Positions 11,783 to 54,469 of a DNA stretch of 64,000 bases are shown here, in pieces (the first letter of the stretch is position 1; each line of letters opens with the position of its first letter). The notes beneath the pieces are model-generated. The model had not been told where the DNA came from and did no database searches. It saw only the letters and a program-made list of their open reading frames with translations. Location: positions 13,324,275-13,388,274 of the forward strand of contig NC_134032.1 of assembly GCF_964204645.1 (NCBI RefSeq), read 5' to 3'. Made by a program: the position numbers and the translations under genes. The DNA comes from Tubulanus polymorphus (Eukaryota; Nemertea; Palaeonemertea; Tubulaniformes; Tubulanidae).

Positions 11783-11893
11783 AGAAAGAGTTACCCGTTT
11801 TGCACAACGATAAGTTAGTCTAGTCGGATTGGGTGACGAACCCCTCCGAATGACACGAAGAAGTTTATGGAGCACTTCGTTAGCGGAAATCAC

Positions 11894-12919: not shown

Positions 12920-14753
12920 CTAGGACCACAGTGTACCGTAAGTAGGAGACGTCCATCGCTGGTATCCGCTATTCATTTTACATATACCCTCGGGTCTCCA
13001 CCAGCGATCATAGTTGGACACGTATCGTCTTTTATCGGCGTCATCGGCGTGGCTCAGCATACATAAACGACACCAGAAATATAGATCACCAGTGAACACT
13101 TTACCGGTTCCTTTCCATCGGAAATATGAATTGTATAAATGATCGTTTTTGTCTAATCTGTGCAGATATTCGGCAAGTTGTTTCGGAGACTCGAAATCGT
13201 CGACGTGTATGAACGAATGTGGAGGAGCAACGCGTTCATAATCATCTTTATGAGCGCCGTAAACTATAGGTACAATATCCCGACTGAAAGATAGAAAGAA
13301 CACGTTTTTTAGTAGATCTAACAAATCTTTTAAGCGTGAAATGAAAAGGGCATTATATTTTATCTTAAAATAGGGATTGTCCCCATTATTTATTTATTTG
13401 GCTGGTAAATTTTGTTTGATTTTTCGATTGAGTGTCCCTTACAGACCCACCACACCTGCAGGGAGCGAAACAGGGGGCATTATTAGCAGGTTTGATGTTA
13501 TCTCTCTCAATCCACTGAGTTCTTCCAAGTATCATTAGAAGGCTTCGGTATATCTGCCACCAAGATTCGAACGCATAACGTGTGGCTTTTTACCACTCGG
13601 ACGCGAGAAATGTGACTCAAGATTATACTTACGATAAACCGTTCAAGAAGAACTTTTCCGTGATGTACTCCCTACAGTTAGAGTTCTCGAAAGCCAGGTA
13701 GAATTTGTAACTCGAGTCCAACAGATGAAAGCATTTTTTTCTCAGGCTTCTGGGACATTTCAGAGTACCGCATTTGCCGTATATATCTACACTGATGTAT
13801 TTGGACAGTTCTTCAGCTAGTTTCAGTCGCTCATTGTTGTCGTAACAATTCGAAATGAACCAGGCGACTTTCTTAGTTTTACCTGCGGCGTAGTTCTTTT
13901 TGAGAACTTTAAAACGAACTGATTCGTTGTAACGTACAAAAACTCCGTACGGAACGGGAATGGTCGAGTCGCGTCGGTAAGTAACTGTCCAGTTTAGACT
14001 CGATTGATAACCGGTTCCGTAGTGTAGAGGAGTGTTTAGTGGGGACTCTACGTTTAACATCACTTGTACTTGATGTTTAGGTCTGGGGCCCGATGGTTCC
14101 ACGGACCCGATGGCGGGGCGTTCAATCACTATGACGTCAGCTGTTCCGATTTTAGAGCGGTCTTCGGTAATCTCGCAAGTATTTATTGGACAGCGCAGAA
14201 ACGGGTTTAGATTGCGTTTAGGGAGTAATGCCGTTTTAAATCCACCCCACAATAAAAACAATTTTAATTTTCGCAGTTTAGATCGTTTAACGGCCTGTTT
14301 GGGAACGTGTTGCAGTTGGGCGGTCAATCTTATACCGTGGTCCATCTCGGGCCATATCGCGGACGGGTCTGATAGAGGTACAAGTCTAAGGGCTTTTACA
14401 AAGTTTAAAGCGCGTTTATGAAGATCAGTAGAGTTCTGACTAGAGGTAGTTGTTGAATTGCTGCGTTTTTCAGATATGAATCCACTCTTATTCCGACGGC
14501 CTGAATCACCAACAGCACCGCGGACGGTAGCAGTACGATTCGAAACATTACGCTTTCCTTCGACCGCGATCGTCATTTCGGAAAATATCGTATTTACGTT
14601 TTGAATTCTGATACTGTTTAACGCGCAGACGATCGCGCCGATGACGACAATGACCAGAAAGTACACACGTAATCGTTTCATCGACGAGGCCCGTGATACC
14701 TGCTTTAGATATGACGATTTCGATAAATCTTCGAATATCATGTTAAATAACAT
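12920..14753 (-). CDS. Alpha-1,3-fucosyltransferase (GT10), tandem copy 2
   Basis: Exons: 14753-13633 and 13283-12920, in frame, 494 aa from ATG 14753 (490 from ATG 14741). It has the same layout as copy 1: anchor YFLVIVVIGAIVCALNSI, a Ser/Thr/Asn-rich stem, CPINTC, NWTVTYRRDSTIPVPYG, YISVDIYGKCG, FYLAFENSNC, then RDIVPIVYGAHKDDYERVAP and FIHVDDFESPKQLAEYL in exon 2. All the usual GT10 blocks are present and no stop interrupts them, so the enzyme is probably active. A good splice acceptor (TGATTTCAG, exon side from 14867) suggests an upstream non-coding exon. A short upstream ORF of about 31 codons lies between that acceptor and the start. GTG/TTG-initiated extensions further upstream are not credible starts. 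Confidence 0.9.
13490..13625 (-). repeat. tRNA-derived SINE remnant in the copy-2 intron
   Basis: The reverse complement reads CTCGCGTCCGAGTGGTAAAA followed by GCGTTCGAATC, so it has A-box- and B-box-like words like those in the copy-1 intron. It sits at the matching place relative to the exon-1 donor. Copy 3 lacks an obvious equivalent. Confidence 0.5.
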
Positions 14754-15630
14754 AGAAATAGTTATTTGTGCACCACTAGAATTTGATTGTTGGTGCGACT
14801 CGAGTTTAAGTTGGGTGACGGGCCCCTCCGAAAGAGACAAATGAATTCAGTGAGCATGTTTCGTTAACTGAAATCACAAAAACAGATCTGGTAAGGTCCG
14901 TACGTAGTTCTTCATCTTTTCGGGCAAGAGAATACGTTAAAATTATGTTTTTCCTTGTGTATTTTCACACGTCTGCACGCGCCCGGCTCTGTAGATCAGG
15001 CTTTGTAAATACATGTAGATTATCCGGTTTTTTTCGAATTCTAGCTGTAACCTCTCTCCGGTGCGATATTTTTCTCCCAGCGGAAATCACACTGGCTCCT
15101 GAATACGCGGGCATCATCATTTCAGTTGACGATTCATTTTTTTCTTTTCTGCGACATGAATTACCTTGAACTTGACGGTTTTTAGATATTTGTACTTCCT
15201 TCGCATTATTAAAACATGACGCGTGGAATTGAGATGGTCGTAGTTTTTCAGTCACCCGATTCTGTTAAAAATCCACACTAGTGAAGTTGATTCCTCGGTA
15301 TGTTTTCCCATATCCAAAATCCGCTTCTATCTCTCTACATGTTAAAATCTATAATATCGCGTGTGTTTGGTATTTCTATATATATGGATCAGAGTTCAAC
15401 GACGAGTTCAAGATAATTTATTCTATAGGAAAAAACGATATAGCCAATAGGACATAATGAACATCTCATAGCTAAGAATACAAACAGGTTCGTGAAATCA
15501 TGCGAGGTAGTTTCGTGTCGATAGAATCGTAAAAAAAACTAGCTTTTCCAAGACGGACAATAGCTCAGTTCAGAACGCCGCGGCAAGACTGGGTCAAGGC
15601 CGTGGCGCGTGTGCGAGCGCGTACGCGTAC

Positions 15631-15662
15631 GCGAGCGGGCACTGTCCCCGGTGCCCGCTCGC
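15631..15662. repeat. GC-rich perfect hairpin
   Basis: The 12-base arms GCGAGCGGGCAC and GTGCCCGCTCGC are exact reverse complements around an 8-base loop. It lies in a CpG-rich patch (15570-15665) that stands out from AT-rich surroundings. The function is unknown; it may belong to a decayed element. Confidence 0.7.
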
Positions 15663-15930
15663 TAGATGAGGACTCCACACGCGGAGAATTTCAGTTTGTA
15701 CCTTGGTAAACTTACATCATAAGTCATTAAACAAAAACTCGTGTTTTGAAAAAAATACTTTTGTGAAGATCTTTGAGATTGTAAAGCGCTTTTCAAATGA
15801 CAAATAATCATCATTATTATCTATCTATTTGGCAAAAAAAATATCAATAATTTACTTTTGTGGATTTGTTTCGGTATAATGTTTCTAGGTGAGCAGGGCC
15901 GGCCCGGCGGTCGCCAGTGTGTAAGATCCT

Positions 15931-16078
15931 GACCGTCAAGTGCTGCCCCTATGTATATCATTAGCGGTGAAAACGCGAACTAACTCGATCACACAATATT
16001 CTTACTGTGGCATGCAAGTAATAGATAGTTCACACATTCTCCGCCAACGATGTATATAGGGGCAGCACTTTACGGTTA
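15931..16078. mobile_element. MITE, family C (GACCGTCAAGTGCTGCCCCT ends)
   Basis: The left end GACCGTCAAGTGCTGCCCCT is answered by AGGGGCAGCACTTTACGGTT on the right. Paired inner words GCGGTGAAAA and GTTCACACATTCTCCGC lie between. Related copies are at 19930-20072 and 55520-55670. Non-coding. Confidence 0.7.
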
Positions 16079-16184
16079 AGAATTCCTCCGGTAGTGTGTG
16101 TAAATAGTATGTTGTAAATAACGTTTGTTATGTTTCAAAGTGCTTTTATCTACTGTTTTTGTAAATAATTGTAAATACTGTTTC

Positions 16185-16263
16185 CTTTCCTCCATATACC
16201 ATGGAAATGGTTGGAGTGTAATAAATATTCGTATTCGTATTCGTATTCGTATTCGTATTCGAA
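16185..16263 (+). repeat. Retroelement-like 3' end with (TATTCG)n tail
   Basis: The block CTCCATATACCATGGAAATG-GTTGGAGTGTAATAAATA is followed by six-base TATTCG/ATTCGT repeats. The same block occurs at 29790-29862 (TAATCG-type tail) and reversed at 25790-25835. A shared 3' block plus a short tandem tail suggests a non-LTR-mobilised SINE-like family, by inference. Confidence 0.65.
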
Positions 16264-16718
16264 TTCGCATAATTAAACATCAATCATGAACTTTCATCAA
16301 ACAACACTATATTCTATTTCAATACATAATTCAATTGAAGGTCTTTGTTAATCAAAATTGAATTCGCTTTTGAAACGAGATTTAAAGTCACCTTGATAGA
16401 ATGAGCTACTATTGAAACAGCACATTATTTCAAAGCGACGTCGTTAATTATACTTTGTTGCGGAAATCGTTTTCGATTGGCTACTTAAAAGAATATTGAT
16501 AATAATAGTAACAAAATTTCTATATAGCGCTAAATCCCATAATGACCCAGAGCGCTTAAAAACAATGGCCTTCCTTTTATAAAACGCGCAATTTTATTAG
16601 AAAATGATGCTGCATTGTTTGGGCCGACCAAGAAATCAAGCGAACAACTTCATGTAGGTCAGACGTGATTGGCACCTATCATCACAAATCTTCCTGACAC
16701 TAGGGACCCCTCGCGCTA

Positions 16719-18607
16719 CTAGGACCACAGTGTACCGTAAGTAGGAGACGTCCATCGCTGGTATCCACTATTCATTTTACATATACCCTCGGGTCTCCAC
16801 CAGTGATCATAATTGGACACGTATCGTCTTTTATCGGCGTCATCGGCGTGGCTCAACATACATAAACGACACCAGAAATATAATCCACCATTAAAAATTT
16901 TACCGGTTCCTTTCCATCGGAAATATGAATTGTATAAATGATCGTTTTCGTCTAATCTGTGCAGATATTCGGCAAGTTGTTTCGGAGACTCGAAATCGTC
17001 AACGTGTATGAACGAATGTGGAGGAGCAACGCGTTCATAATCATCTTTATGAGCGCCGTAAACTATAGGTACAATATCCCGACTGAAAGATAGAAAGAAC
17101 ACGTTTTAGTAAATCTAACAAATCTTTTAAGCGTGAAATGAACCAGTCACTATTAGCAGGTTTGTTGTATCTTTATTCTCTCATTCCACTGAGTTAAGTA
17201 GTATTATTAGCAGGAAATAAAGGAACCTCTGTCGCCATATCTCAATAGTAGTAACAATATCAAACATTTTCTTATGTAGTGCTGTTTCCCGAGATATGAA
17301 GACGAACAGCACATGGCGATATGGAACAAACATTTATGGACGAAAAATTCTGAATAAAATGAATTTTTACTAGCTATTAATGACAGCACAACGATACGTG
17401 AATGCTTTGTGATTTAAAAATGTATTGAATCGGAATATCACCACGAACATTCTTCAAAAGGGAATTCCAAAAATTAGGGCAAAAACGGTGACTCCAATAA
17501 TGATTATACTCACGACAAACCGTTCAAGAAGAACTTTTCCGTGATGTACTCCCTACAGTTAGAGTTCTCGAAAGCCAGGTAGAATTTGTAACTCGAGTCT
17601 AATAGATTTAAACATTTTTCACGGTCGCTTCTAGGACATTTCAGAGTACCGCATTTGCCGTATATATCCACACTGATGTATTTGGACAGTTCTTCAGCTA
17701 GTTTCAGTCGCTCATTTTTGTCGTTACAGTTTGAAACGAACCAGGCGACTTTCTTAGTTTTACCCGAGGCGTAGTTCTTTTTGAGAACTTTAAAACGAAC
17801 TGATTCGTTGTAACGTACAAAAAAACCGTACGGAACGGGAATGGTCGAGTCGCGTCGGTAATTAGCTGTCCAGTTTATACTCGATTGATAACCGGTTCCG
17901 TAGTGTAGGGGAGTGTGAAAGGGCGATTCCATAGTAAACATCACTTGTACTTGATGTTTAGGTCTGGGGACCGATGGTATAACGGACCGGATCACGTGGC
18001 GTTCAATCACTATGACGTCAGCCGTTCCGACTTTAGAGCGGTCGTCGGTAATTCTACACGTATTAACAGGGCAGCCCGAAAATGGATTCGAATTACGTTT
18101 AGCTAGGAATGTTTTCTCGAATCCTCCCCACAATAAAAGCACCTTCGATTTTCGCTGTTTAGATGCTAGGACGGCCTGTTTGGGAATGTGTTGCAACTGG
18201 GCGGTCAGTCTTACACCGTGGTCCATTTCGGGCCATATCGCGGATGGGTCTGATAGAGGTATAAGTCCTACGGTTTCGATAAAATCTAAAGCGCGTCTAT
18301 AAAGACTAAAGTGCTGACTAGAGGTAGTTGTTGAATTGCTGCGTTTTTCTAATATTAATCCACTGTTATTCCGACGGTTTTCCGCATTGTCAACATCACC
18401 GTGGGTACGATTCGAAACATTACGCTTTCCTTCGACAACGATCGTCATTTCGGAAAATAACGTATTTACGTTTTGAATTGTGACACTGTTTAACGTGCAG
18501 ACGATCGCGCCGATGACGACAACGGCGAGAAAATAAAAACGATATCGCTTTAACGATGAAGCCCACGATACCAGCTTTAAATATGACGTCGAATCTTCGA
18601 CTCCCAT
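16719..18607 (-). CDS. Alpha-1,3-fucosyltransferase (GT10), tandem copy 3
   Basis: Exons: 18607-17514 and 17082-16719 (GTGAGT donor, TTTCAG acceptor), in frame, 485 aa from ATG 18607. This is the most divergent of the three. It has a shorter tail before the anchor (YFLAVVVIGAIVCTLNSV), a different stem, CPVNTC, NWTANYRRDSTIPVPYG, VSNCNDKNERLKLAEELSKY and FYLAFENSNC. Exon 2 is almost identical to copy 2, with the same WRPEGICKMNSGYQRWTSP tail ending in Ser. Its start methionine aligns with the second methionine of copies 1 and 2. A non-coding upstream exon is suggested by the acceptor AATTTCAG before 18770. All GT10 blocks are present, so a functional Golgi enzyme is expected. Confidence 0.9.
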
Positions 18608-18770
18608 GTTGTCCTTACGCAGAAATAGTTATCAAACAACGCGCGGCTATGATTTGATAAGCACTAGACGTACGGAGTGGGCGCGCGACGGGTTAAGTCT
18701 AGTTGTACGTTAGGTTAAGACCTTCAGAAGACACGCCAAAACGTTTTAGCTATATCAAGCACTCCGTAAA

Positions 18771-37878: not shown

Positions 37879-37939
37879 CGCCCAACGTGGGGCTCGAACC
37901 CACGACCCTGGGATTAAGAGTCCCATGCTCTACCGACTG
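37879..37939 (-). tRNA. tRNA-Lys(CTT), 3' 61 nt, interrupted by the mobile element
   Basis: Read on the minus strand, this is the tRNA from nucleotide 13 to the 3' end: CAGTCGGTAGAGC, anticodon loop with CTT in GGGACTCTTAATCCC, then the T arm GTGGGTTCGAGCCCCAC and acceptor strand GTTGGGC plus the discriminator G. The first 12 nt are missing here and lie 16.5 kb away at 54458-54469. The two pieces add to 73 nt, the normal length of tRNA-Lys. The D-stem is cut, so this locus should not make tRNA unless the element leaves precisely. Confidence 0.92.
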
Positions 37940-39143
37940 CGCCAAAACTTCTACTCACTCGGCTCGGTTGCGTTTCCTGAATGCCGGAGGGGTACTGCTA
38001 GATGCAAACCACTACAGTACTTGAAACTTCCATTCACTCGGCGTAGGGAATCCCGTACTATTGAGGGGTCAGTGGTTCGAATCTGGGAGTAGATTAATGA
38101 GTTTTAATTAGTTTATTTCCATCCTGCCAATCTTCATATTCTCAGCTCATTTTATCAGTGAAAAATGACCTGACAACTAAATAAATGATACCTTTTTCTA
38201 TAAAATCTCTCCTCTGCTTTTTAAGGGCTTGGAACCTTCTACCATGTTTTTGACATAGTAGGCAGCATTAAAAATTTTATAGTTTGTCATTTGCATAACA
38301 GGCAGGCTTCTAAGCACAATGCACATACACACTCAATCGAAAAATTACAATTTTGGACATATACACTGAATTGAAAAATTACAATTTTGAGGGACTTCTA
38401 GTTTAAAATAAGTTCTACTACTAAACTACAAATTCTAAATGTTAGAGTGAAATTTCTTAAGTCAAACTACCACTGAATCAAACTACAAATTTCAAATTTT
38501 ATAGTGAATTTTCTAAAGTTGAACTACCATTAAATCAACCAAATATTTCTGGAATCCCTATTCTAGTATAAAACAAATAAAAGATACAAATTTAAAAAAT
38601 AAAACTCAAAATTAAAACTGCCAATTATTAATAAACAATTATAAAATAATAAACCATCAAACTAAATAAATTATAAACAAAACCATCAAACTGAATAAAT
38701 TATAAACAATCAGTCCAGTGTGATGAAGCAAGCCTGAAATTCATCAAGGGTTTTTCAAAAACTTGTTACAATCTAAGGAGAATTCTGGATACAATTTTAT
38801 ATTTCTTTCACATGGTCCTTAGATTTTTCACAAATTTTCACATAAAATGTCACAAAGTTAGATTTGTGCAGCTGTCAATCTGTTGTCTGTGCCTAGCCCT
38901 TCAGACGATCACCTTTTTGAATAGCGAAGTCTGGACAAACCACGATTTTTCCCAAATGGTGAGGTGATCGAATGTCTGTCGGACATCAAACTGAGGGGTT
39001 GTACAGACAGCAGGTTGATAGCTGCATGAAAATGTCAAAATCGAGTAATTTCTGAAAGATTTTACCAGGCACACATACCCATATCTACGCGATACGCACA
39101 GTTGATAGATCTCTAGTCCTGGAATCCTGTCACTAATCGAGCT

Positions 39144-42100
39144 TCACTTCTTCTTCTTGTATCCCCTGGCCTGCATTTGCTGTCTCCACTCTTCCAGAGT
39201 CACCGTTGACGTTTCACTACAGTACCAATTTCCGAAAAACTGCTGATGCGAGGGCTTCGATCTCTCCTTTTTACACTTAGGACAAGTAACCTTTGTCCGT
39301 GGAGTGTACTTTCTGCGACTCACCCCAGCTTCTAATTGCTGCTGCCTTTGTAATCTGTGCATATGGGTTGTGTAAGGAACAACCTGTATATTTCCCATGG
39401 ATTCAGAATGGATGACCTTAGGCAGAACGGCCTGGTCTTTTGGCGGTGCAACAATTATCAGCTGGGTAGTGGCTGGCTGCAAACTTTCAGCTTTCTGCTC
39501 CTTAGACGCAACAGGTCCTGTCATGATTTGTGAGCAACCCATCAATCGAGTAGTATCTGCGGTAGTATCTGTATTGAGGGACTGATGAGCGCCTGACAAA
39601 TCAATAACATTCTGAGGAATCTGCGGTGCAGGCCGCGTACTAGTTGCTGCCGCAGCTACTGATGCGAGAGTCGCAGTTGCGGAAGGAGTTGTTCTTCGCC
39701 GCTTTATTTTCGCCATTCCAGCAGTGTTCGTAGGAAGTACAAAGGTATGGCGATCATCAGAGGATCCTCTCGGCAGCACAGAAGGCTTTTGACAAGCAAT
39801 AAGCAATGGTTGCTGGCTTGCCAAAGGAGGATTCGGGATTTGAATTCCCTGCCTGAGAACCATTTCCTCTTGCTTCTTAGAACGTCGATTCCACCTAAAA
39901 TGAAAAAAGAAATAGACCATTTTATGAACATAATCTCAATATGATTAATAATAATTTAGATGGTTAAGAGGTGGGGCATAAAAGGTTAACTTACCATTGG
40001 GTTATAGTCGTCATATTCAACTCTGGAAGCTGAATGTTCGAGTGATGCATAACCACAGGATTTCCGACGACGACGTCTCTTATGTGCTTGTAGGCGCGGG
40101 AGATAAGGATCCATCGCGTAACTCGCACTCCTGCAACCGTTTTTGATGCTGGATACTTCGCACAGAGCTTCACCATGGTTGTCTCGACGTAGCGATTACA
40201 AGTCGGCCACTGAGCAGGTGCCGAATTTGGTCCCAGAAAAGCTCTAAAAATTATCATAAATACTTGATTAACATAAAGTTTATTTAGGTTAACCCATGTA
40301 ACCTCTATTGTAGGGTCAAATTGAACTCAAAGATTATATTGCCATTTAATATTCAATTGGCAATTTCGACTTATTAGTACATTTATTTTGAAATGAAAAA
40401 TACAGTAGATTAGGCTTACCTCCGTGAACTTTCAACTCCAGGAGCCAAGCCAGAACGTTTCTTTGTTGCTCGAAATCTACCTTGACTGAGAGTTGGTTGA
40501 TGGCGTGGTTTGATGATGGACCTCTTGTCGTAGTCGTCCAAGTTCTGCCACAAATCAATGATTTCACGAGCTTCGTTGTTTGTAAGAGCCAGTGAATTCT
40601 CATCCAAGTTTACCAGTTTCTCAGCCAAAGCATCAACCTTTCCAAATCCAGCAATACCGTCTGGTCCCAAAGAATCCTGAATAAAATAGATATTTGAAAT
40701 TAAATTCTTTAACAACATCAACACAACTCGAACGAAAACCTTTTTTTATAGAAAACTTACATGCTCATCCGAATCCCCCAGGGGAGATTCAATAGATGGA
40801 ACATTCGACAGTTCAAAGGGCTGCAGCTCTGGAGTATCAAGGGTCGGTAAGCGAAATTCTGGCACAGCATCATCGGGTTCAAGCTCAGTGACCTCCTCAG
40901 TTTCCATCGGCAACGGAGTATCAACGGACATGGTGTCAACGGGAAGAACTGGTGCAGTTGGTGTCACAGTCGGAGAAACTACAATGAAAAATAATACACA
41001 AAACCATTATCCCTTAGTCAAAATGTAATGGATTCAGCTGAGGGCATATCACAAAGTCAACAGTAATCAGAGGAATCAATTACAGGAATGAACTTAACAG
41101 AACTGAAATAGAATTATTATTCAAACAATTTTCTAAAAACATTGTGACTTACAGAAGTCGTTATCCTCATCAGTAGGCACAGCTAATGTCAAGTCTTCCA
41201 CATCATACAGAGGCAGCGGCTCATCAACAGGGCTGTCACTAAATTCCTGGTCAGAAGCAGAGTCCAGCAAGCGTTCCTCCTCGGCTAGACGCAACCTAGT
41301 GTTAGACACTGGTGCCTCTCCTGTTTGGCTGTAAAGATAATCAATACCTATAGGTTCACCGGTGTAACGCAATGGCCCTTGGAATGCTGGTAAAAGCTTC
41401 TTTCCAAGGACAGTTTGACTTAGCTCATTGATATGATGGCGTAGCTTTCCACTGTAGCAGGAAATCTGTTTGTCTTGAGTTACAGCTGCAATAGCTCGAT
41501 CCTCATTCCAACGCGCTAAACCATCAACCAGGTACATCTGGAAACTGACATCGCCAGCCACAGTACCTATAAATATGAAATCATGAAATTAGCTTATTAG
41601 TTAGAGAAAGCTACAAGAGAAGATTTCATATGGTGAAAGTGATTTTTAATCTTACCTGGAATGAATCTGTTTAGATGAAGGTGGAATGATTCCAATGACG
41701 TCGAACCACGGGCACATCTGTAGATAGGCAGTGTCGTCTGTCCTTTCTTGATCGTTCCGGTTTGTGTGTACAACTGAACGCCAGGTGGATCCTGCAGGCA
41801 GGCAACATGCTTAGCTTGAGACTTATAAATCTCCGCCATGCGCTCAGTGTTTATGAGCGGAACACCCAAGGAGTCTTTCCCTTTGTCACCCGAGAAGGAA
41901 GCGACGAGCTGACCCAGTAGGCGGACAGTAGCATCTGTTCCACGTGTGGTACGTTTACAGTGCCGTGCCAACTCGGCCGAAGAAATTCGCTCAACTAACT
42001 GGCGGTCACTAAGACCAGTGATAGCTTTCAGGGCTAGCTCCTCACGCTTCGCTCTCTTTAGACGGTCAAGATCCTCAGGGTCCCACTCAAAGATACACCG

Positions 42101-44934
42101 GCTAAGGCCTCTCATAAAACTCGCATACAGCCGATGTGAATCTGTAGTACACCCTGTAGAGAACCGCCGCATGAAATGCCAAACGTCCAATCTGATGATG
42201 ATATCTGTCCAAGGGGCTAGGTTTGTTTTCAGTACGCTGTGGCCACAACAATCCCGATCAGTGTATATCACCTCAGGGGCAGGCACACCAGCAGTATCAT
42301 ACCTTTTGATTAGGCCATCAATCATTTGACTGAGACCATAGCCTTCGCCAGTAGTAAGGACAGACATAAGGACCTGACCATGCTCGTTCCCTACATTGGT
42401 GCACCACATCGCGGTCCCCTTGGCATGACCAGTCAACTTCTTGACTATTTTCTTAGTTGAGTCAATTTTGAGAATTCGACCAAACTGAGACGTAATGGCT
42501 GCCCTGACCTCGTCCAGTCTCGACAACACATCACTGACGTACACAAGCATGAGCCACCGAAACTGCGGGATGCTCAAAGGCTGTGGTGGGTCAGCGAATT
42601 CGTGCGGTTTTACGAGACCAGAACGGATAGCCTTGGACAAGCCTTCACACTCAGTGAGGTACTGTGAGACACGCTCGAGGTAAGCTTCGCCATGTTGCTC
42701 CCGCAGCTTCTTCTGGATCTGAGTAGTGCTGTTACCCAGACCTCTCTGACGAAGCAGTCGCACAACCTTATAATCGCACGCGTACTTCTGTGTCAGTATA
42801 CACGGGAACTGGAGCTGGTAACCGACGGCTAGTTGCGAGATGATCTCAGCAGTCGTTCCAACATATTTCGCCTTGCATCTATAAATACGAGACAAAAAAA
42901 AAAAATCATTCATAAAATCACAACCTGTAATCAGCAGGTCACACTTTAACATGGACACAATCTTACTTCTGACATTCCAAACTTTCTGTTGCGATGAAGT
43001 AGTGCGAATCGATATCGAGTACCTGCCGCAACCGCTTGTATAATCCTGCTGATGTCAACTCTCTCCCTTGGCACGTTGCGACTGGACATCTAAGTTGGAC
43101 TTGCCACAGTCGTCGAGGCATCCACAAGAACAGGCGGTGGGCAAAGTACTGCTCGACGTTGGGTACCTGGCCTGCAACTACCAATGGCTGTGGAGGATTC
43201 CACCAAAGCTGATTGACGCGGCTAAAATCCATCTCCAGCCTCCCACTCTTGGTTTTCATGAAGAGGGTTTTGGTGATCCACTTCTGTTCATATTCGGACA
43301 GAACTTTACGCCATTCTGGTAAAAGCAAGCGGTGGTCGTTATCGATCGCGGTTGTCGTAGTCGGTGTAGTAGTAGTAGTAGTAGTAGTCGTGGTCGGTGT
43401 AGTCGTAGTCGCTGTAGTCCGTGTTGTCCGAGAGGCTAGATAGAGAAAAATAGAATATGAATTTACTATCTCATTCATGATTGAGGTTTATAGCATAAGA
43501 ATTCTAAATCATCATAAAGTCCGGTACAATTTCACTGAAATATTAAACAAAAACAGAATGATAGACAAAAGGAACAAAAGAAAACCGCATCACTGTAATG
43601 TTACCATCTAAATACCTATAAATGAGGAATAAGAGTGACTCACTGGAAAAATGAGATTACAAAAGGGAAATCACCTTAAAAAATAAGTTATTAAGCAGGA
43701 GAGGATAGAAGTGTTGCATTTTGCTAGTGACAGAGAGAGACAGAGAGAGTGTGTGTGTTATCATATTCATAATGTCCATTATAGCAACTATATACCAATA
43801 TCATAAAGATGGATTATGTAATAATGAGACAGTACTGCATACATATAAAGCATGATTACCCAGTTTTTGTAAAGAAACAGGTACATTAAAATAGATAGGA
43901 AGAAAATACCATTTTACAATAGCTACACATTTATAAAAGCATATTCTAGGAACCCTACACAACATAAATCTTACCAACTTATCCAGATATAAACTGTAAA
44001 TTTTGAGAAATAAATGATTAAATGTTACAATATGGCTGCAATTACTAGGAGTGGATGGCCGAAAGGGAGGACTGCGGTTAACTTGGATGGAATCTTTACA
44101 ATCCGTCCAAAACACTGCAAAAATTTGTAGGATGTATATCTCATGATGTATCAATTGAATCTACAATAAAAATATCATTAGAATTAAGTTATATTACCAG
44201 ATAACTGCGCTTCAAGAGTGATGACACTTGTCAGTAGATCATCATCATCATCAGACGGCATCGAGACGTTCTCAGTTGTAGTCGATGAGCTGGGTTGACT
44301 CCTAGTTGTCGCAGTTGGTTGGCTCCTGGTTGTAGCAGATGGGCGACTCCTCCTAGTTGTCACAGTTGGTTGGCTCCCGGCTGGTTGAGTCTGACGAGCT
44401 TCTGTGAAAATAAAAAATTTTTCATAAATAGAACAAGCACAAAACAACTCTGATATCAAACGATCCGACTGTATATTGAAAACTTGACTTACTTGAAATC
44501 GTAGGTTTCACACGCTCTTGATGGACAGCTCTCCTCCTCTCAATCGCGTCCTTGGCTTCGGGAAACAGCCTCATGTATTTGAAGAGGGCTTTCTTGTTGT
44601 CGGCATGGTTCTTGTGGTCTATCTTGGGATGTGGTTTTTGCTTCTCACATTCATCCATCACGTAGAGGTTTACTGCAAAGCCAAGAGCATTAGAGAGTAT
44701 CCACTGAAATTTCTTACCCCTAAACTTACCAAACTGAAGTGTATACTGGCCTAACAAATGTTTCGGGTTTGACTGATCTCCTCTGGCCTGGGCAACCCGG
44801 CGCATCGCATCCGCCAAAACTTTCTCCGCAGGGTCCTGAGTTGCCCAACCACTAGTGCTTTTATGGTTCTTGGCGGCATCGGTGTCAAACGTGTCGATCG
44901 TACGATTTTTTAGGCGACGGAAAATTGGTTCCAT
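39144..44934 (-). CDS. DDE-type transposase, 1,408 aa, nine exons (unit 1)
   Basis: Exons: 44934-44493, 44401-44198, 43435-42967, 42878-41656, 41566-41153, 40978-40761, 40676-40420, 40243-39995 and 39894-39144. All splice sites are GT-AG and the sum is 4,227 nt with no stop. Visible order: an ExoX-C-like motif LQFGKFRGKKFQWIL (about 66-80); a Thr/Ser-rich linker with a poly-Thr run; a Trp-rich zinc domain with Cys332, Cys337, Cys370 and Cys373 (the type often labelled DUF6729); a catalytic RNase-H-fold core with candidate acids Asp511 (KIDSTKK), Asp579 or Asp581 (YTDRDCC) and Glu768 (GSTSLESFHLHL); an acidic region; and a C-terminal zinc ribbon (Cys1363, Cys1366, His1375, Cys1384) with a Lys-rich end. 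This protein family is repeated in many fish and marine invertebrate genomes. Insertion in a small-RNA gene recalls the Dada superfamily, but that assignment is inference. Confidence 0.85.
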
Positions 44935-46198
44935 GCTAGAACAAAAAGAGAAACATCAATTAAACATCGAACAAATTTTAAGGGTCCAGTTTAACATAAT
45001 TTCAATTTTCATCTTACATATGAAAGTAATTACATCAACTAGGTAATTGAGAAATTAGCAAGCTAGGGCTTTATTGTCATTGGAAATCAAAACATTTGAA
45101 TTGATAACCACATTGGCCTATGTTTTGATAACCAAGTCTTTGTGAGCACAATGCCTGTCATAATAAAGGGATATAATAAGCTCCCACTTATATTGACCTT
45201 TCACAGAATACACAAAACAATAATAGAGACAGCCAGTGGCTGTGGTATCATTGTGACTATTGTTTCAAGTTAATTGCAAGTTGTAGGGAGAGATTTCTGG
45301 TCAATGGCCTATATGCATAAGTACAGGGAGGGTCGCATTCACAAATTGAGTTGAAAAAAGATTTAGACAATTGATGATTTTTAATTTATATAATTCAAGG
45401 GGGGATGATAGGAATTTTAAGGGGAATGCTGAGTCAGAATTTTAGATTTTACCCCTGGCCTGGATTCTAGATTTCTTGATTCATAGCGCATCAAGGAATT
45501 TACGGACCCATAGGCTAATACGCAGTTACGACGCTGGAAATACTGAATGATTCGCTAGGAAGGACCTGTTTCATTTTTGGGCTGATAATCGACCTATTCC
45601 ACGCACGGGAGTAGGCCTAAATAAAAAAAGGACTTATAGGGCCTAACAGTAACAGAATTGACAAAATATCACGGAATGGAAAAATGAAACAATCCGTAAT
45701 GCCTTCTAGTGAAAACTTCTACTCTCTCGCTCTTCTAGTGTTCACGATTCACATTTTGATGATGAATGATAGGCTTAACCCAAAATAATTGTAATAAATT
45801 GAAGTTGATTGAATTTGCGAGTGAAAAGTAAGAAGTTTTTCACCAAAAAATTGGCATAAGCAAGCATTTGCGATAAAAGATTTAATCGGGTATGAAACCT
45901 CGGATGTTGGAAGTACTGAATTCATACACTTACGTGATAATCGGGTAATCTAATCAGATGATCTAGAACGAATTAGTCTGCTTTCTGTGACTGTAACTGC
46001 GCTGTGTGTTTACGATCGGAAAATCAAATATGGCGCTCGTCAACGGTATATCCCGAAATTACGTCATCGCTAACAAGCACAGCGATTGGTCAATTTCAGG
46101 AAATTTCAGGAAATGAATTGTGGATATCCGTGGATTTGATTGGCTGTTTCCACAATTCATTTCCTGAAATAAAACACCGCCTCACGCGCGCCCGCTAG
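44935..46198 (-). promoter_or_regulatory. Upstream region of the transposase gene, unit 1 (right end of the element)
   Basis: This 1.26 kb lies between the transposase start and the element edge. Near the edge are two ATTGG words (CCAAT boxes on the minus strand) at about 46085 and 46139, an AAATATGGCGC word and TTACGTCATC, which are promoter-like. The 22-bp inverted repeat lies among them. Promoter function is inferred. Confidence 0.4.
46103..46170. repeat. Subterminal perfect hairpin, unit 1
   Basis: The 22-base arms 46103-46124 and 46149-46170 (ATTTCAGGAAATGAATTGTG-GA and complement) flank a 24-base loop, 28 bp from the unit end. TTTCCTGAA also occurs 30 bp inside the left end (37972), so it may be part of a transposase recognition site. 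Confidence 0.8.
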
Positions 46199-49100
46199 AG
46201 CTAAAACTTCTACTCACTCGGCTCGGTTGCGTTTCCTGAATGCCGGAGGGGTACTGCTAGATGCAAACCACTACAGTACTTGAAACTTCCATTCACTCGG
46301 CGTAGGGAATCCCGTACTATTGAGGGGTCAGTGGTTCGAATCTGGGAGTAGATTAATGAGTTTTAATTAGTTTATTTCCATCCTGCCAATCTTCATATTC
46401 TCAGCTCATTTTATCAGTGAAAAATGACCTGACAACTAAATAAATGATACCTTTTTCTATAAAATCTCTCCTCTGCTTTTTAAGGGCTTGGAACCTTCTA
46501 CCATGTTTTTGACATAGTAGGCAGCATTAAAAATTTTATAGTTTGTCATTTGCATAACAGGCAGGCTTCTAAGCACAATGCACATACACACTCAATCGAA
46601 AAATTACAATTTTGGACATATACACTGAATTGAAAAATTACAATTTTGAGGGACTTCTAGTTTAAAATAAGTTCTACTACTAAACTACAAATTCTAAATG
46701 TTAGAGTGAAATTTCTTAAGTCAAACTACCACTGAATCAAACTACAAATTTCAAATTTTATAGTGAATTTTCTAAAGTTGAACTACCATTAAATCAACCA
46801 AATATTTCTGGAATCCCTATTCTAGTATAAAACAAATAAAAGATACAAATTTAAAAAATAAAACTCAAAATTAAAACTGCCAATTATTAATAAACAATTA
46901 TAAAATAATAAACCATCAAACTAAATAAATTATAAACAAAACCATCAAACTGAATAAATTATAAACAATCAGTCCAGTGTGATGAAGCAAGCCTGAAATT
47001 CATCAAGGGTTTTTCAAAAACTTGTTACAATCTAAGGAGAATTCTGGATACAATTTTATATTTCTTTCACATGGTCCTTAGATTTTTCACAAATTTTCAC
47101 ATAAAATGTCACAAAGTTAGATTTGTGCAGCTGTCAATCTGTTGTCTGTGCCTAGCCCTTCAGACGATCACCTTTTTGAATAGCGAAGTCTGGACAAACC
47201 ACGATTTTTCCCAAATGGTGAGGTGATCGAATGTCTGTCGGACATCAAACTGAGGGGTTGTACAGACAGCAGGTTGATAGCTGCATGAAAATGTCAAAAT
47301 CGAGTAATTTCTGAAAGATTTTACCAGGCACACATACCCATATCTACGCGATACGCACAGTTGATAGATCTCTAGTCCTGGAATCCTGTCACTAATCGAG
47401 CTTCACTTCTTCTTCTTGTATCCCCTGGCCTGCATTTGCTGTCTCCACTCTTCCAGAGTCACCGTTGACGTTTCACTACAGTACCAATTTCCGAAAAACT
47501 GCTGATGCGAGGGCTTCGATCTCTCCTTTTTACACTTAGGACAAGTAACCTTTGTCCGTGGAGTGTACTTTCTGCGACTCACCCCAGCTTCTAATTGCTG
47601 CTGCCTTTGTAATCTGTGCATATGGGTTGTGTAAGGAACAACCTGTATATTTCCCATGGATTCAGAATGGATGACCTTAGGCAGAACGGCCTGGTCTTTT
47701 GGCGGTGCAACAATTATCAGCTGGGTAGTGGCTGGCTGCAAACTTTCAGCTTTCTGCTCCTTAGACGCAACAGGTCCTGTCATGATTTGTGAGCAACCCA
47801 TCAATCGAGTAGTATCTGCGGTAGTATCTGTATTGAGGGACTGATGAGCGCCTGACAAATCAATAACATTCTGAGGAATCTGCGGTGCAGGCCGCGTACT
47901 AGTTGCTGCCGCAGCTACTGATGCGAGAGTCGCAGTTGCGGAAGGAGTTGTTCTTCGCCGCTTTATTTTCGCCATTCCAGCAGTGTTCGTAGGAAGTACA
48001 AAGGTATGGCGATCATCAGAGGATCCTCTCGGCAGCACAGAAGGCTTTTGACAAGCAATAAGCAATGGTTGCTGGCTTGCCAAAGGAGGATTCGGGATTT
48101 GAATTCCCTGCCTGAGAACCATTTCCTCTTGCTTCTTAGAACGTCGATTCCACCTAAAATGAAAAAAGAAATAGACCATTTTATGAACATAATCTCAATA
48201 TGATTAATAATAATTTAGATGGTTAAGAGGTGGGGCATAAAAGGTTAACTTACCATTGGGTTATAGTCGTCATATTCAACTCTGGAAGCTGAATGTTCGA
48301 GTGATGCATAACCACAGGATTTCCGACGACGACGTCTCTTATGTGCTTGTAGGCGCGGGAGATAAGGATCCATCGCGTAACTCGCACTCCTGCAACCGTT
48401 TTTGATGCTGGATACTTCGCACAGAGCTTCACCATGGTTGTCTCGACGTAGCGATTACAAGTCGGCCACTGAGCAGGTGCCGAATTTGGTCCCAGAAAAG
48501 CTCTAAAAATTATCATAAATACTTGATTAACATAAAGTTTATTTAGGTTAACCCATGTAACCTCTATTGTAGGGTCAAATTGAACTCAAAGATTATATTG
48601 CCATTTAATATTCAATTGGCAATTTCGACTTATTAGTACATTTATTTTGAAATGAAAAATACAGTAGATTAGGCTTACCTCCGTGAACTTTCAACTCCAG
48701 GAGCCAAGCCAGAACGTTTCTTTGTTGCTCGAAATCTACCTTGACTGAGAGTTGGTTGATGGCGTGGTTTGATGATGGACCTCTTGTCGTAGTCGTCCAA
48801 GTTCTGCCACAAATCAATGATTTCACGAGCTTCGTTGTTTGTAAGAGCCAGTGAATTCTCATCCAAGTTTACCAGTTTCTCAGCCAAAGCATCAACCTTT
48901 CCAAATCCAGCAATACCGTCTGGTCCCAAAGAATCCTGAATAAAATAGATATTTGAAATTAAATTCTTTAACAACATCAACACAACTCGAACGAAAACCT
49001 TTTTTTATAGAAAACTTACATGCTCATCCGAATCCCCCAGGGGAGATTCAATAGATGGAACATTCGACAGTTCAAAGGGCTGCAGCTCTGGAGTATCAAG

Positions 49101-52100
49101 GGTCGGTAAGCGAAATTCTGGCACAGCATCATCGGGTTCAAGCTCAGTGACCTCCTCAGTTTCCATCGGCAACGGAGTATCAACGGACATGGTGTCAACG
49201 GGAAGAACTGGTGCAGTTGGTGTCACAGTCGGAGAAACTACAATGAAAAATAATACACAAAACCATTATCCCTTAGTCAAAATGTAATGGATTCAGCTGA
49301 GGGCATATCACAAAGTCAACAGTAATCAGAGGAATCAATTACAGGAATGAACTTAACAGAACTGAAATAGAATTATTATTCAAACAATTTTCTAAAAACA
49401 TTGTGACTTACAGAAGTCGTTATCCTCATCAGTAGGCACAGCTAATGTCAAGTCTTCCACATCATACAGAGGCAGCGGCTCATCAACAGGGCTGTCACTA
49501 AATTCCTGGTCAGAAGCAGAGTCCAGCAAGCGTTCCTCCTCGGCTAGACGCAACCTAGTGTTAGACACTGGTGCCTCTCCTGTTTGGCTGTAAAGATAAT
49601 CAATACCTATAGGTTCACCGGTGTAACGCAATGGCCCTTGGAATGCTGGTAAAAGCTTCTTTCCAAGGACAGTTTGACTTAGCTCATTGATATGATGGCG
49701 TAGCTTTCCACTGTAGCAGGAAATCTGTTTGTCTTGAGTTACAGCTGCAATAGCTCGATCCTCATTCCAACGCGCTAAACCATCAACCAGGTACATCTGG
49801 AAACTGACATCGCCAGCCACAGTACCTATAAATATGAAATCATGAAATTAGCTTATTAGTTAGAGAAAGCTACAAGAGAAGATTTCATATGGTGAAAGTG
49901 ATTTTTAATCTTACCTGGAATGAATCTGTTTAGATGAAGGTGGAATGATTCCAATGACGTCGAACCACGGGCACATCTGTAGATAGGCAGTGTCGTCTGT
50001 CCTTTCTTGATCGTTCCGGTTTGTGTGTACAACTGAACGCCAGGTGGATCCTGCAGGCAGGCAACATGCTTAGCTTGAGACTTATAAATCTCCGCCATGC
50101 GCTCAGTGTTTATGAGCGGAACACCCAAGGAGTCTTTCCCTTTGTCACCCGAGAAGGAAGCGACGAGCTGACCCAGTAGGCGGACAGTAGCATCTGTTCC
50201 ACGTGTGGTACGTTTACAGTGCCGTGCCAACTCGGCCGAAGAAATTCGCTCAACTAACTGGCGGTCACTAAGACCAGTGATAGCTTTCAGGGCTAGCTCC
50301 TCACGCTTCGCTCTCTTTAGACGGTCAAGATCCTCAGGGTCCCACTCAAAGATACACCGGCTAAGGCCTCTCATAAAACTCGCATACAGCCGATGTGAAT
50401 CTGTAGTACACCCTGTAGAGAACCGCCGCATGAAATGCCAAACGTCCAATCTGATGATGATATCTGTCCAAGGGGCTAGGTTTGTTTTCAGTACGCTGTG
50501 GCCACAACAATCCCGATCAGTGTATATCACCTCAGGGGCAGGCACACCAGCAGTATCATACCTTTTGATTAGGCCATCAATCATTTGACTGAGACCATAG
50601 CCTTCGCCAGTAGTAAGGACAGACATAAGGACCTGACCATGCTCGTTCCCTACATTGGTGCACCACATCGCGGTCCCCTTGGCATGACCAGTCAACTTCT
50701 TGACTATTTTCTTAGTTGAGTCAATTTTGAGAATTCGACCAAACTGAGACGTAATGGCTGCCCTGACCTCGTCCAGTCTCGACAACACATCACTGACGTA
50801 CACAAGCATGAGCCACCGAAACTGCGGGATGCTCAAAGGCTGTGGTGGGTCAGCGAATTCGTGCGGTTTTACGAGACCAGAACGGATAGCCTTGGACAAG
50901 CCTTCACACTCAGTGAGGTACTGTGAGACACGCTCGAGGTAAGCTTCGCCATGTTGCTCCCGCAGCTTCTTCTGGATCTGAGTAGTGCTGTTACCCAGAC
51001 CTCTCTGACGAAGCAGTCGCACAACCTTATAATCGCACGCGTACTTCTGTGTCAGTATACACGGGAACTGGAGCTGGTAACCGACGGCTAGTTGCGAGAT
51101 GATCTCAGCAGTCGTTCCAACATATTTCGCCTTGCATCTATAAATACGAGACAAAAAAAAAAAATCATTCATAAAATCACAACCTGTAATCAGCAGGTCA
51201 CACTTTAACATGGACACAATCTTACTTCTGACATTCCAAACTTTCTGTTGCGATGAAGTAGTGCGAATCGATATCGAGTACCTGCCGCAACCGCTTGTAT
51301 AATCCTGCTGATGTCAACTCTCTCCCTTGGCACGTTGCGACTGGACATCTAAGTTGGACTTGCCACAGTCGTCGAGGCATCCACAAGAACAGGCGGTGGG
51401 CAAAGTACTGCTCGACGTTGGGTACCTGGCCTGCAACTACCAATGGCTGTGGAGGATTCCACCAAAGCTGATTGACGCGGCTAAAATCCATCTCCAGCCT
51501 CCCACTCTTGGTTTTCATGAAGAGGGTTTTGGTGATCCACTTCTGTTCATATTCGGACAGAACTTTACGCCATTCTGGTAAAAGCAAGCGGTGGTCGTTA
51601 TCGATCGCGGTTGTCGTAGTCGGTGTAGTAGTAGTAGTAGTAGTAGTCGTGGTCGGTGTAGTCGTAGTCGCTGTAGTCCGTGTTGTCCGAGAGGCTAGAT
51701 AGAGAAAAATAGAATATGAATTTACTATCTCATTCATGATTGAGGTTTATAGCATAAGAATTCTAAATCATCATAAAGTCCGGTACAATTTCACTGAAAT
51801 ATTAAACAAAAACAGAATGATAGACAAAAGGAACAAAAGAAAACCGCATCACTGTAATGTTACCATCTAAATACCTATAAATGAGGAATAAGAGTGACTC
51901 ACTGGAAAAATGAGATTACAAAAGGGAAATCACCTTAAAAAATAAGTTATTAAGCAGGAGAGGATAGAAGTGTTGCATTTTGCTAGTGACAGAGAGAGAC
52001 AGAGAGAGTGTGTGTGTTATCATATTCATAATGTCCATTATAGCAACTATATACCAATATCATAAAGATGGATTATGTAATAATGAGACAGTACTGCATA

Positions 52101-54457
52101 CATATAAAGCATGATTACCCAGTTTTTGTAAAGAAACAGGTACATTAAAATAGATAGGAAGAAAATACCATTTTACAATAGCTACACATTTATAAAAGCA
52201 TATTCTAGGAACCCTACACAACATAAATCTTACCAACTTATCCAGATATAAACTGTAAATTTTGAGAAATAAATGATTAAATGTTACAATATGGCTGCAA
52301 TTACTAGGAGTGGATGGCCGAAAGGGAGGACTGCGGTTAACTTGGATGGAATCTTTACAATCCGTCCAAAACACTGCAAAAATTTGTAGGATGTATATCT
52401 CATGATGTATCAATTGAATCTACAATAAAAATATCATTAGAATTAAGTTATATTACCAGATAACTGCGCTTCAAGAGTGATGACACTTGTCAGTAGATCA
52501 TCATCATCATCAGACGGCATCGAGACGTTCTCAGTTGTAGTCGATGAGCTGGGTTGACTCCTAGTTGTCGCAGTTGGTTGGCTCCTGGTTGTAGCAGATG
52601 GGCGACTCCTCCTAGTTGTCACAGTTGGTTGGCTCCCGGCTGGTTGAGTCTGACGAGCTTCTGTGAAAATAAAAAATTTTTCATAAATAGAACAAGCACA
52701 AAACAACTCTGATATCAAACGATCCGACTGTATATTGAAAACTTGACTTACTTGAAATCGTAGGTTTCACACGCTCTTGATGGACAGCTCTCCTCCTCTC
52801 AATCGCGTCCTTGGCTTCGGGAAACAGCCTCATGTATTTGAAGAGGGCTTTCTTGTTGTCGGCATGGTTCTTGTGGTCTATCTTGGGATGTGGTTTTTGC
52901 TTCTCACATTCATCCATCACGTAGAGGTTTACTGCAAAGCCAAGAGCATTAGAGAGTATCCACTGAAATTTCTTACCCCTAAACTTACCAAACTGAAGTG
53001 TATACTGGCCTAACAAATGTTTCGGGTTTGACTGATCTCCTCTGGCCTGGGCAACCCGGCGCATCGCATCCGCCAAAACTTTCTCCGCAGGGTCCTGAGT
53101 TGCCCAACCACTAGTGCTTTTATGGTTCTTGGCGGCATCGGTGTCAAACGTGTCGATCGTACGATTTTTTAGGCGACGGAAAATTGGTTCCATGCTAGAA
53201 CAAAAAGAGAAACATCAATTAAACATCGAACAAATTTTAAGGGTCCAGTTTAACATAATTTCAATTTTCATCTTACATATGAAAGTAATTACATCAACTA
53301 GGTAATTGAGAAATTAGCAAGCTAGGGCTTTATTGTCATTGGAAATCAAAACATTTGAATTGATAACCACATTGGCCTATGTTTTGATAACCAAGTCTTT
53401 GTGAGCACAATGCCTGTCATAATAAAGGGATATAATAAGCTCCCACTTATATTGACCTTTCACAGAATACACAAAACAATAATAGAGACAGCCAGTGGCT
53501 GTGGTATCATTGTGACTATTGTTTCAAGTTAATTGCAAGTTGTAGGGAGAGATTTCTGGTCAATGGCCTATATGCATAAGTACAGGGAGGGTCGCATTCA
53601 CAAATTGAGTTGAAAAAAGATTTAGACAATTGATGATTTTTAATTTATATAATTCAAGGGGGGATGATAGGAATTTTAAGGGGAATGCTGAGTCAGAATT
53701 TTAGATTTTACCCCTGGCCTGGATTCTAGATTTCTTGATTCATAGCGCATCAAGGAATTTACGGACCCATAGGCTAATACGCAGTTACGACGCTGGAAAT
53801 ACTGAATGATTCGCTAGGAAGGACCTGTTTCATTTTTGGGCTGATAATCGACCTATTCCACGCACGGGAGTAGGCCTAAATAAAAAAAGGACTTATAGGG
53901 CCTAACAGTAACAGAATTGACAAAATATCACGGAATGGAAAAATGAAACAATCCGTAATGCCTTCTAGTGAAAACTTCTACTCTCTCGCTCTTCTAGTGT
54001 TCACGATTCACATTTTGATGATGAATGATAGGCTTAACCCAAAATAATTGTAATAAATTGAAGTTGATTGAATTTGCGAGTGAAAAGTAAGAAGTTTTTC
54101 ACCAAAAAATTGGCATAAGCAAGCATTTGCGATAAAAGATTTAATCGGGTATGAAACCTCGGATGTTGGAAGTACTGAATTCATACACTTACGTGATAAT
54201 CGGGTAATCTAATCAGATGATCTAGAACGAATTAGTCTGCTTTCTGTGACTGTAACTGCGCTGTGTGTTTACGATCGGAAAATCAAATATGGCGCTCGTC
54301 AACGGTATATCCCGAAATTACGTCATCGCTAACAAGCACAGCGATTGGTCAATTTCAGGAAATTTCAGGAAATGAATTGTGGATATCCGTGGATTTGATT
54401 GGCTGTTTCCACAATTCATTTCCTGAAATAAAACACCGCCTCACGCGCGCCCGCTAG
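46199..54457 (-). mobile_element. tRNA-inserted DNA transposon, unit 2 of 2 (8,259 bp)
   Basis: Every compared feature is shifted by exactly 8,259 bp from unit 1, and all predicted translations of the two units are identical. The junction with unit 1 reads GCTAG-AGCT-AAAACTTC, whereas the left outer edge reads GACTG-CGCC-AAAACTTC. The right edge GCTAG is followed by AGCTAGCCGGGC, the missing tRNA 5' end. So unit 2 is flanked by AGCT on both sides, like a 4-bp target duplication. The subterminal hairpin recurs at 54362-54429. Confidence 0.88.
47403..53193 (-). CDS. DDE-type transposase, 1,408 aa, nine exons (unit 2)
   Basis: Exons: 53193-52752, 52660-52457, 51694-51226, 51137-49915, 49825-49412, 49237-49020, 48935-48679, 48502-48254 and 48153-47403. 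The gene is the exact counterpart of the unit 1 gene, with the same splice sites, candidate catalytic residues and zinc clusters, and no frame damage. Having two intact, identical copies means the duplication is very recent or a product of sequence assembly. Its upstream side ends at the tRNA 5' fragment. Confidence 0.85.
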
Positions 54458-54469
54458 AGCTAGCCGGGC
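54458..54469 (-). tRNA. tRNA-Lys(CTT), 5' 12 nt
   Basis: On the minus strand it reads GCCCGGCTAGCT, the acceptor 5' strand, positions 8-9 and the start of the D stem. It joins CAGTCGGTAGAGC at 37939 to complete a canonical tRNA-Lys. The minus-strand upstream flank begins at 54470. Confidence 0.88.

Follow-up and report, generated by a model that had tools for sequence, protein, structure and literature searches.

A tRNA-Lys gene split by a tandem Dada transposon in the nemertean Tubulanus polymorphus, with a putative twister ribozyme past the transposase stop codon

Introduction

A tRNA-Lys gene on contig NC_134032.1 of Tubulanus polymorphus is interrupted by more than 16 kb of DNA, which raises the questions of what kind of element lies between its two parts, whether its position reflects chance or target choice, and what its junctions and internal features say about how it moves. 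We addressed these questions in the 64,000-nucleotide stretch that holds the gene (positions 13,324,275 to 13,388,274, hereafter the window) and in the genome as a whole. The anatomy of the locus, the position of the target and its recurrence elsewhere in the genome are direct observations. With regard to the explanation as a whole, we consider it likely that the locus holds a Dada DDE transposon that has moved recently and targets nt 8-13 of tRNA-type genes (the Pol III A box) and, at times, a 5S rRNA gene, that moves in a form carrying a donor hexamer and whose transcript is cut by a putative twister.

Results and Discussion

Anatomy of the Split tRNA-Lys Gene

Two head-to-tail element units, each of 8,253 bp and the same in every letter, break the minus-strand tRNA-Lys(CTT) gene at nt 8-13 (Table 1). 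The larger tRNA part still scores as a tRNA (40.2 bits, E 4.8e-5, Rfam), the intact tRNA-Lys relative (L008) scores 65.4 bits (Rfam), and ARAGORN found no whole tRNA anywhere in the window. The preliminary description, which was made from the sequence of the locus, had given the insert as 16,518 bp, exactly 2 x 8,259, and this was borne out: each period of 8,259 consists of an 8,253-bp unit and a 6-bp junction, and twice the period is therefore two identical units with two such junctions. Its division of the tRNA into pieces of 61 and 12 nt misses a difference at the left hexamer, which is GCGCCA here and GAGCTA in the intact gene (plus strand). Likewise, its statement that no tRNA base is lost is right in that all tRNA positions are present, although one of the junction copies of nt 8-13 is foreign. 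Chance matching of tRNA halves from independent loci is not a serious rival, because the units are identical over 8.25 kb and other copies of the element break tRNA-type genes at the same position. The split tRNA-Lys gene with its two tandem units is thus confirmed as real.

Table 1. Features of the split tRNA-Lys locus, in window coordinates.
Feature	Coordinates	Strand	Basis
tRNA-Lys(CTT) nt 14-73, 3' part of split gene	37879..37938	-	Rfam, intact relative L008
Left junction hexamer GCGCCA (tRNA strand TGGCGC), foreign to tRNA-Lys	37939..37944		Junction reading
Dada unit 1, 8,253 bp, transposase on minus strand	37945..46197	-	Unit comparison
Type-P1 twister ribozyme motif, unit 1, 869 nt after stop codon of last ORF	38206..38274	-	Rfam RF03160
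Last transposase ORF, C-terminal CCHC zinc finger	39144..39935	-	ORF list, motif
485-aa ORF: second half of DUF6729 (PF20499) and DDE core D198, D266, D290xxH293, E455	41597..43054	-	Pfam, motif
ORF with first half of DUF6729 and first cysteines of CCCC finger	42963..43487	-	Pfam, motif
Upstream ORF, same strand, probable N-terminal exon	44422..44955	-	ORF list
Inter-unit junction hexamer GAGCTA, native tRNA-Lys	46198..46203		Junction reading
Dada unit 2, 8,253 bp, identical to unit 1	46204..54456	-	Unit comparison
Type-P1 twister ribozyme motif, unit 2	46465..46533	-	Rfam RF03160, 53.6 bits, E 3.5e-9
485-aa DDE ORF of unit 2	49856..51313	-	ORF list
Right junction hexamer GAGCTA (tRNA strand TAGCTC), native tRNA-Lys nt 8-13	54457..54462		Junction reading
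tRNA-Lys nt 1-7, 5' part of split gene	54463..54469	-	Comparison with intact gene

Each unit carries, shortly before its right end, a long palindrome (ATTTCAGGAAATGAATTGTGGA... and its reverse; about 54355-54430 and 46096-46171), which yields weak opposite-strand matches in the right-end search. Elsewhere in the window, at 10670-18628 on the minus strand, ORFs of 417, 405, and 372 aa are accompanied by similarly placed antisense ORFs of 114, 115, and 115 aa, an arrangement that suggests a tandem gene family.

Transposase and Dada Membership

The catalytic set of the 485-aa ORF (D198, D266, D290-V-W-H293, and E455) consists of motifs that are kept in relatives. Its D-D spacing of 68 is equal to that of Dada-U6_DR (567 to 635), while its D-E spacing is 189 vs. 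176 there. An 88-nt intron with GT..AG ends connects the ORF at 42963..43487 to the 485-aa ORF, and the CCCC finger is made up of CPVATC from the upstream of these two ORFs and CQKC created by splicing of the intron; in relatives the finger lies within one ORF. The CCHC finger, CPKCKKERSKPSHQQFFGNWYC, in the last ORF (39144-39935) is present too in the relatives L054 and L056, and the pattern fails in L055 because cysteines are changed there. DUF6729 was the sole Pfam family above cut-off in a scan of nine ORFs, the ORF at 44422..44955 having no Pfam match; neither a Kolobok- or KDZ-type family (at E up to 1) nor a Dada model was among the Pfam matches. No inverted repeats of at least 30 nt were found in the region, and the longest match between the outer 90 nt was 6 nt. 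Sub-terminal inverted repeats shared with the target were not found either, the element ends matching over at most 6 nt and showing no match of at least 8 nt with the tRNA. Short repeats of this kind are a trait of the U6 and U1 lineages and not of all Dada, according to the available text of PMC3706591.

The combination of a DDE transposase with a D-D spacing of 68, DxxH, CCCC and CCHC fingers, no terminal inverted repeats, 6-bp junctions, small-RNA-gene targets, introns, and tandem insertion supports the identification of the element as a Dada DDE transposon by the published marks of that group, the comparison with known Dada being by description. The initial guess of Dada membership was therefore well founded on the points of transposase motifs, zinc fingers, absence of terminal inverted repeats, junction length and targets. 

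Other kinds of element were considered. A tyrosine-recombinase (Tn916-like) element, suggested by the coupling-sequence-like hexamers and the lack of terminal inverted repeats, was rejected on the grounds of the DDE/DxxH motif set and of the best structural neighbors of the ORF, which are DDE transposases. The structural neighbor PDB 6xgx, which we take to be ISCth4, an IS256-family transposase, was returned at a score below the tool's safe level from a model with a mean pLDDT of 58.8. A Helitron and a non-LTR retroelement, considered on account of the head-to-tail form and the choice of target, were set aside, as Pfam gave DUF6729 alone above cut-off in the nine ORFs.

Genome Copies, Targets, and Age

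Across the 267.8-Mb assembly (77 contigs), near-full matches were found to the left end at seven places and to the right end at ten, each count including two ends of the window array. Targets with intact relatives are the tRNA-Lys gene of the window (relative L008) and a tRNA-Met gene (C8:14.09 Mb; relatives L068 and L069). Further targets are a tRNA-like SINE (C10:4.16 Mb; relatives L071 and L072) and a 5S rRNA gene (C11:7.73 Mb), where the insertion lies inside a 5S array with intact 5S genes on both sides of the broken one. The insertion point at tRNA nt 8-13 (the A box) is common to tRNA-Lys, tRNA-Met, and the SINE. The element thus inserts at a fixed site in multicopy small RNA genes. The fixed insertion point that had been proposed holds in that it recurs in tRNA-Met and the SINE, but a 5S gene was hit too, and targeting specific to tRNA-Lys is contradicted, as tRNA-Lys is one locus only among identified targets, the others being tRNA-Met, the SINE, and 5S.

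The genome search for copies and their flanks, which the preliminary description had advised, returned these RNA-gene targets but also several copies without a recognizable RNA gene, a finding that counts in part against targeting. The copy at C6:20.19 Mb has GCGCCA on both sides and its strand reads TGGCGCAAGTTAG, which is A-box-like by eye, with no RNA gene recognized. None was recognized in the flanks of the C10:8.82 Mb copy or of the right ends on C19 (one) and C9 (two). On C19 there was no unit match in the stretch examined for the left end, and the two C9 copies point outward and are joined without left ends.

The tRNA-Met copy is 100% identical to the window unit (three pieces compared), and the C6 copy differs from it at a single base, in 4,455 bp, and matches it otherwise (three pieces compared); the near-identity of these copies points to very recent movement of the family. 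In the 5S copy, identity is 99.3-99.5% and stops interrupt the DDE ORF. Two C10 copies (L004/L017 at 4.16 Mb and L007/L018 at 8.82 Mb) share an internal deletion at unit positions of about 1213-5262, and their common deletion and retained twister end make them look like a mobile non-autonomous form.

Junction Hexamers and the Route of Integration

Read on the tRNA strand in the order element 5' side / 3' side / intact gene, the hexamers are TAGCTC / TGGCGC / TAGCTC at tRNA-Lys (with TAGCTC also between the units), TGGCGC / TAGCGC / TAGCGC at tRNA-Met, TGGCGC / TGGCCG / TGGCCG at the SINE (with a few extra letters) and, read in reverse, TGGCGC / CCATCC / CCATCC at 5S (with a few extra letters). 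The junctions are of 6 bp, and in all four insertions with a comparable intact target just one side is equal to the target, the other being TGGCGC, foreign to it. Furthermore, GCGCCA lies within a few letters of the end in all eight right ends outside the window. The pattern of one native hexamer and TGGCGC at four of four sites argues for a hexamer brought in by the element as opposed to plain target duplication.

The alternative is an ordinary Dada with a classical 6-bp target-site duplication, in which the foreign hexamers arose by later mutation or gene conversion and the twister motif described below is a passenger without a role. Dada has been described with target-site duplications of 6-7 bp (PMC3706591, in part), native GAGCTA stands at the middle as well as the right junction of the window, and the C6 copy has GCGCCA at both sides, all of which would fit this alternative. 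Against it, the foreign hexamer is the same TGGCGC at each of the four sites and not a random one. Later mutation is a poor account of this, as the copies are nearly identical, with a native side that varies by target and a foreign side that is constant; a change of one or two bases within just one hexamer is improbable given that no piece compared shows any difference between the window units and the tRNA-Met copy. We regard this alternative as unlikely. One-sided replacement of the hexamer has been noted in Dada-tA and Dada-tY, with the speculation that the flank was transposed with the element (Kojima 2022, PMC8869645, in part).

We infer instead that the mobile form bears a 6-bp donor-site flank. 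One such form would be a circle whose abutted ends are separated by a 6-bp spacer; another would have an overhang. The donor hexamer would pair imperfectly with the target hexamer and come to lie on one flank of the insertion, with the target's own hexamer kept on the other.

A Type-P1 Twister Motif Past the Stop Codon

Both window twister motifs lie on the coding strand and match all 68 model positions of RF03160 with no broken pair (53.6 bits, E 3.5e-9), a score below the gathering score of 67.2; a relative at C11:4.46 Mb is at the gathering score (67.2 bits, E 4.3e-13). A genome-wide RF03160 search at E up to 0.001, with 62 of 9,949 candidates scored, reported ten matches, and 14 control genomes gave none. 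All ten are in Dada elements, on the coding strand, and represent four lineages. The window element family accounts for seven of them, two internally deleted copies included, and the other three (67.2, 60.8, and 54.4 bits at C11:4.46 Mb, C9:11.30 Mb, and C11:4.48 Mb) are on the coding strand of relatives. An eleventh copy with its core deleted (38.9 bits) follows the C9 one, so that L055 (C9:11.30 Mb) has tandem twisters at 1255-1310 and 1501-1562, about 250 nt apart, the second core-deleted. Were both of them intact, such a pair would set free a short RNA. The distance from transposase stop codon to ribozyme is 869 nt in the window, 231 in L054, 244 in L055, and 170 in L056. No Rfam match was found in L064-L066, which are stretches downstream of three other Dada copies.

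In full-length alignments there is no broken pair in the window, L054, or L056 and one in L055, and the window core reads GGUUCC vs. the consensus GGUCCC. By a pair count over six rows, two of them from the window family and two from the C9 locus, 96.1% of pair cells are paired vs. a shuffled mean of 87.9% and 35.8-52.9% when slid. Four pairs of stem 3 have changed on both sides, and two-sided changes as numerous were matched in 72 of 500 shuffles by pair count and in 0 of 500 by cell count; one stem of the predicted twister covaries by this comparison. Identity between the window ribozyme and those of the other lineages is 41-49 of 55-65 positions, vs. 16-17 of 39-40 in the 40-nt flanks. Protein identity is about 45-60% between the window lineage and the others and about 50-89% among the other three, C9 and C11:4.46 Mb being closest. 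On single-strand folding, the window and L055 motifs took the twister-like form, L054 came near to it and L056 folded differently; z-scores were weak (-1.77 to -0.19). That the twister letters are alike where the flanks differ between lineages, and that a stem covaries, speaks against a passenger without a role.

It is also conceivable that the twister came from another mobile element, such as an RTE-type retrotransposon, which landed once in an ancestral Dada. Truncated twisters are stated, as work in preparation, to be conserved at the 5' end of RTE retrotransposons (PMC7761336, in part), and by eye retroelement-like sequence comes soon after the twister in L054. However, the ten twister-P1 matches reported genome-wide are without exception in Dada, the 40-nt ribozyme flanks in the window lineage bear little likeness to those in the other lineages, and the motif lies beyond the transposase stop codon in all four lineages, leading us to consider such an origin quite improbable. 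We think it similarly improbable that the head-to-tail pair is an assembly error with one unit read twice since, while the units are identical over 8,253 bp and the tandem is known from assembled sequence alone, the internal junction is an exact right end, one native hexamer and an exact left end, and tandem Dada-U1 copies separated by a hexamer are in print (PMC3706591, in part).

Several features near the motif or in relatives deserve mention. Between the twister and the element end (window 38070-38085) the coding strand reads GATTCGAA/GATTCGAG, the reverse of the Pol III B-box-like GGTTCGAATC; the reverse motif is also downstream of the twister in L055 and L056 and absent in L054, and it could be a binding site for TFIIIC or a remnant of a tRNA. 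In L054 (C11:4.46 Mb) a frame that is reverse-transcriptase-like by eye, which we take to be a Penelope-type reverse transcriptase, is found about 30 nt past the twister, and GAAGATTGCGGGGGA, at the boundary of the twister and this retroelement-like sequence, is seen again in L055 and L056. A U6 remnant that begins with GCGCAA is located on the coding-5' side of a Dada relative (L037 about 2551-2597, C9:11.303 Mb; Rfam 40.3 bits, below cut-off, and also read by eye) and points to Dada-U6 in the same genome.

Proposed Role of the Twister

The putative twister would cut the transposase transcript past the stop codon, which could limit or shape the transposase message and separate it from the small RNA gene beyond. 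In the window family, the coding strand past the stop codon has its only AATAAA/ATTAAA sites 157 and 166 nt beyond the start of the ribozyme, and cutting would consequently part the message from its poly(A) site. This account is not general, as the other lineages have a poly(A) signal 25-127 nt before the ribozyme. We tentatively favor, over a passenger role, a predicted twister that cuts the transposase transcript and thereby limits expression or sets the 3' end, although our confidence in this falls a little short of even. A bolder proposal, which we hold to be less likely than not, would make Dada a class of ribozyme-bearing eukaryotic DNA transposons in which self-cleavage of the transposase transcript by the twister is ancestral and working, and in which integration from a circle-like form would bring its 6-bp spacer along from donor to target, one junction of every new insertion recording the previous site.

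Retroelements and phage-rich regions of bacteria are known settings of small ribozymes. If conserved in a DDE DNA transposon, a twister would have a role in an element class without RNA-mediated movement. The hexamer pattern bears on a question left by the Dada papers, that of the reason for the frequent replacement of the native hexamer. The Dada authors also see a practical use in gene delivery for insertion at specific sites in tRNA genes (PMC3706591 and PMC8869645, in part).

Comparison with Known Systems

Type-P1 twisters have been described near Mu-like phage genes in bacteria (PMC10085705), and in the available parts of PMC10085705 and PMC7761336 no eukaryotic DNA transposon is named among their associations. 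A whole-word text search of the open-licence literature, in which the plural was unmatched, found no link between Dada and a ribozyme, text searches on twisters and transposons, judged mainly by their listings, likewise showed none, and the portion of PMC8869645 available to us does not mention a ribozyme for fish Dada. In the four Dada lineages described here, all 68 model positions of RF03160 are matched and the pairing is kept.

In other respects the resemblance to known Dada is close, as far as the accessible text of PMC3706591 and PMC8869645 goes. Dada-U6 and Dada-U1 have, like the element here, a D-D spacing of 68, DxxH, CCCC and CCHC fingers, no terminal inverted repeats, introns, and tandem insertions separated by a hexamer (PMC3706591). 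Dada-tK and the A-box lineages tY, tN, tR, and tS of ray-finned fish share the insertion point at tRNA nt 8-13, the hexamer TAGCTC or TGGCGC, and one-sided replacement of the native hexamer; as here, several tRNA genes may be used by one family, and a Dada-5S also exists (PMC8869645). The differences, compared by description, are that one family here spans tRNA-Lys, tRNA-Met, a tRNA-like SINE, and 5S, unlike the fish A-box Dada, and that tRNA-Lys, the main target of Dada-tK, is here just one locus among the identified targets. Dada-tK, A-box insertion, 5S targeting, tandem Dada, and hexamer replacement have thus already been published (PMC3706591, PMC8869645), and the tRNA-Lys insertion itself is an ordinary, if elegant, Dada case. 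The twister motif past the stop codon and the constant foreign hexamer TGGCGC go further than the published Dada, and it is these that are worth following.
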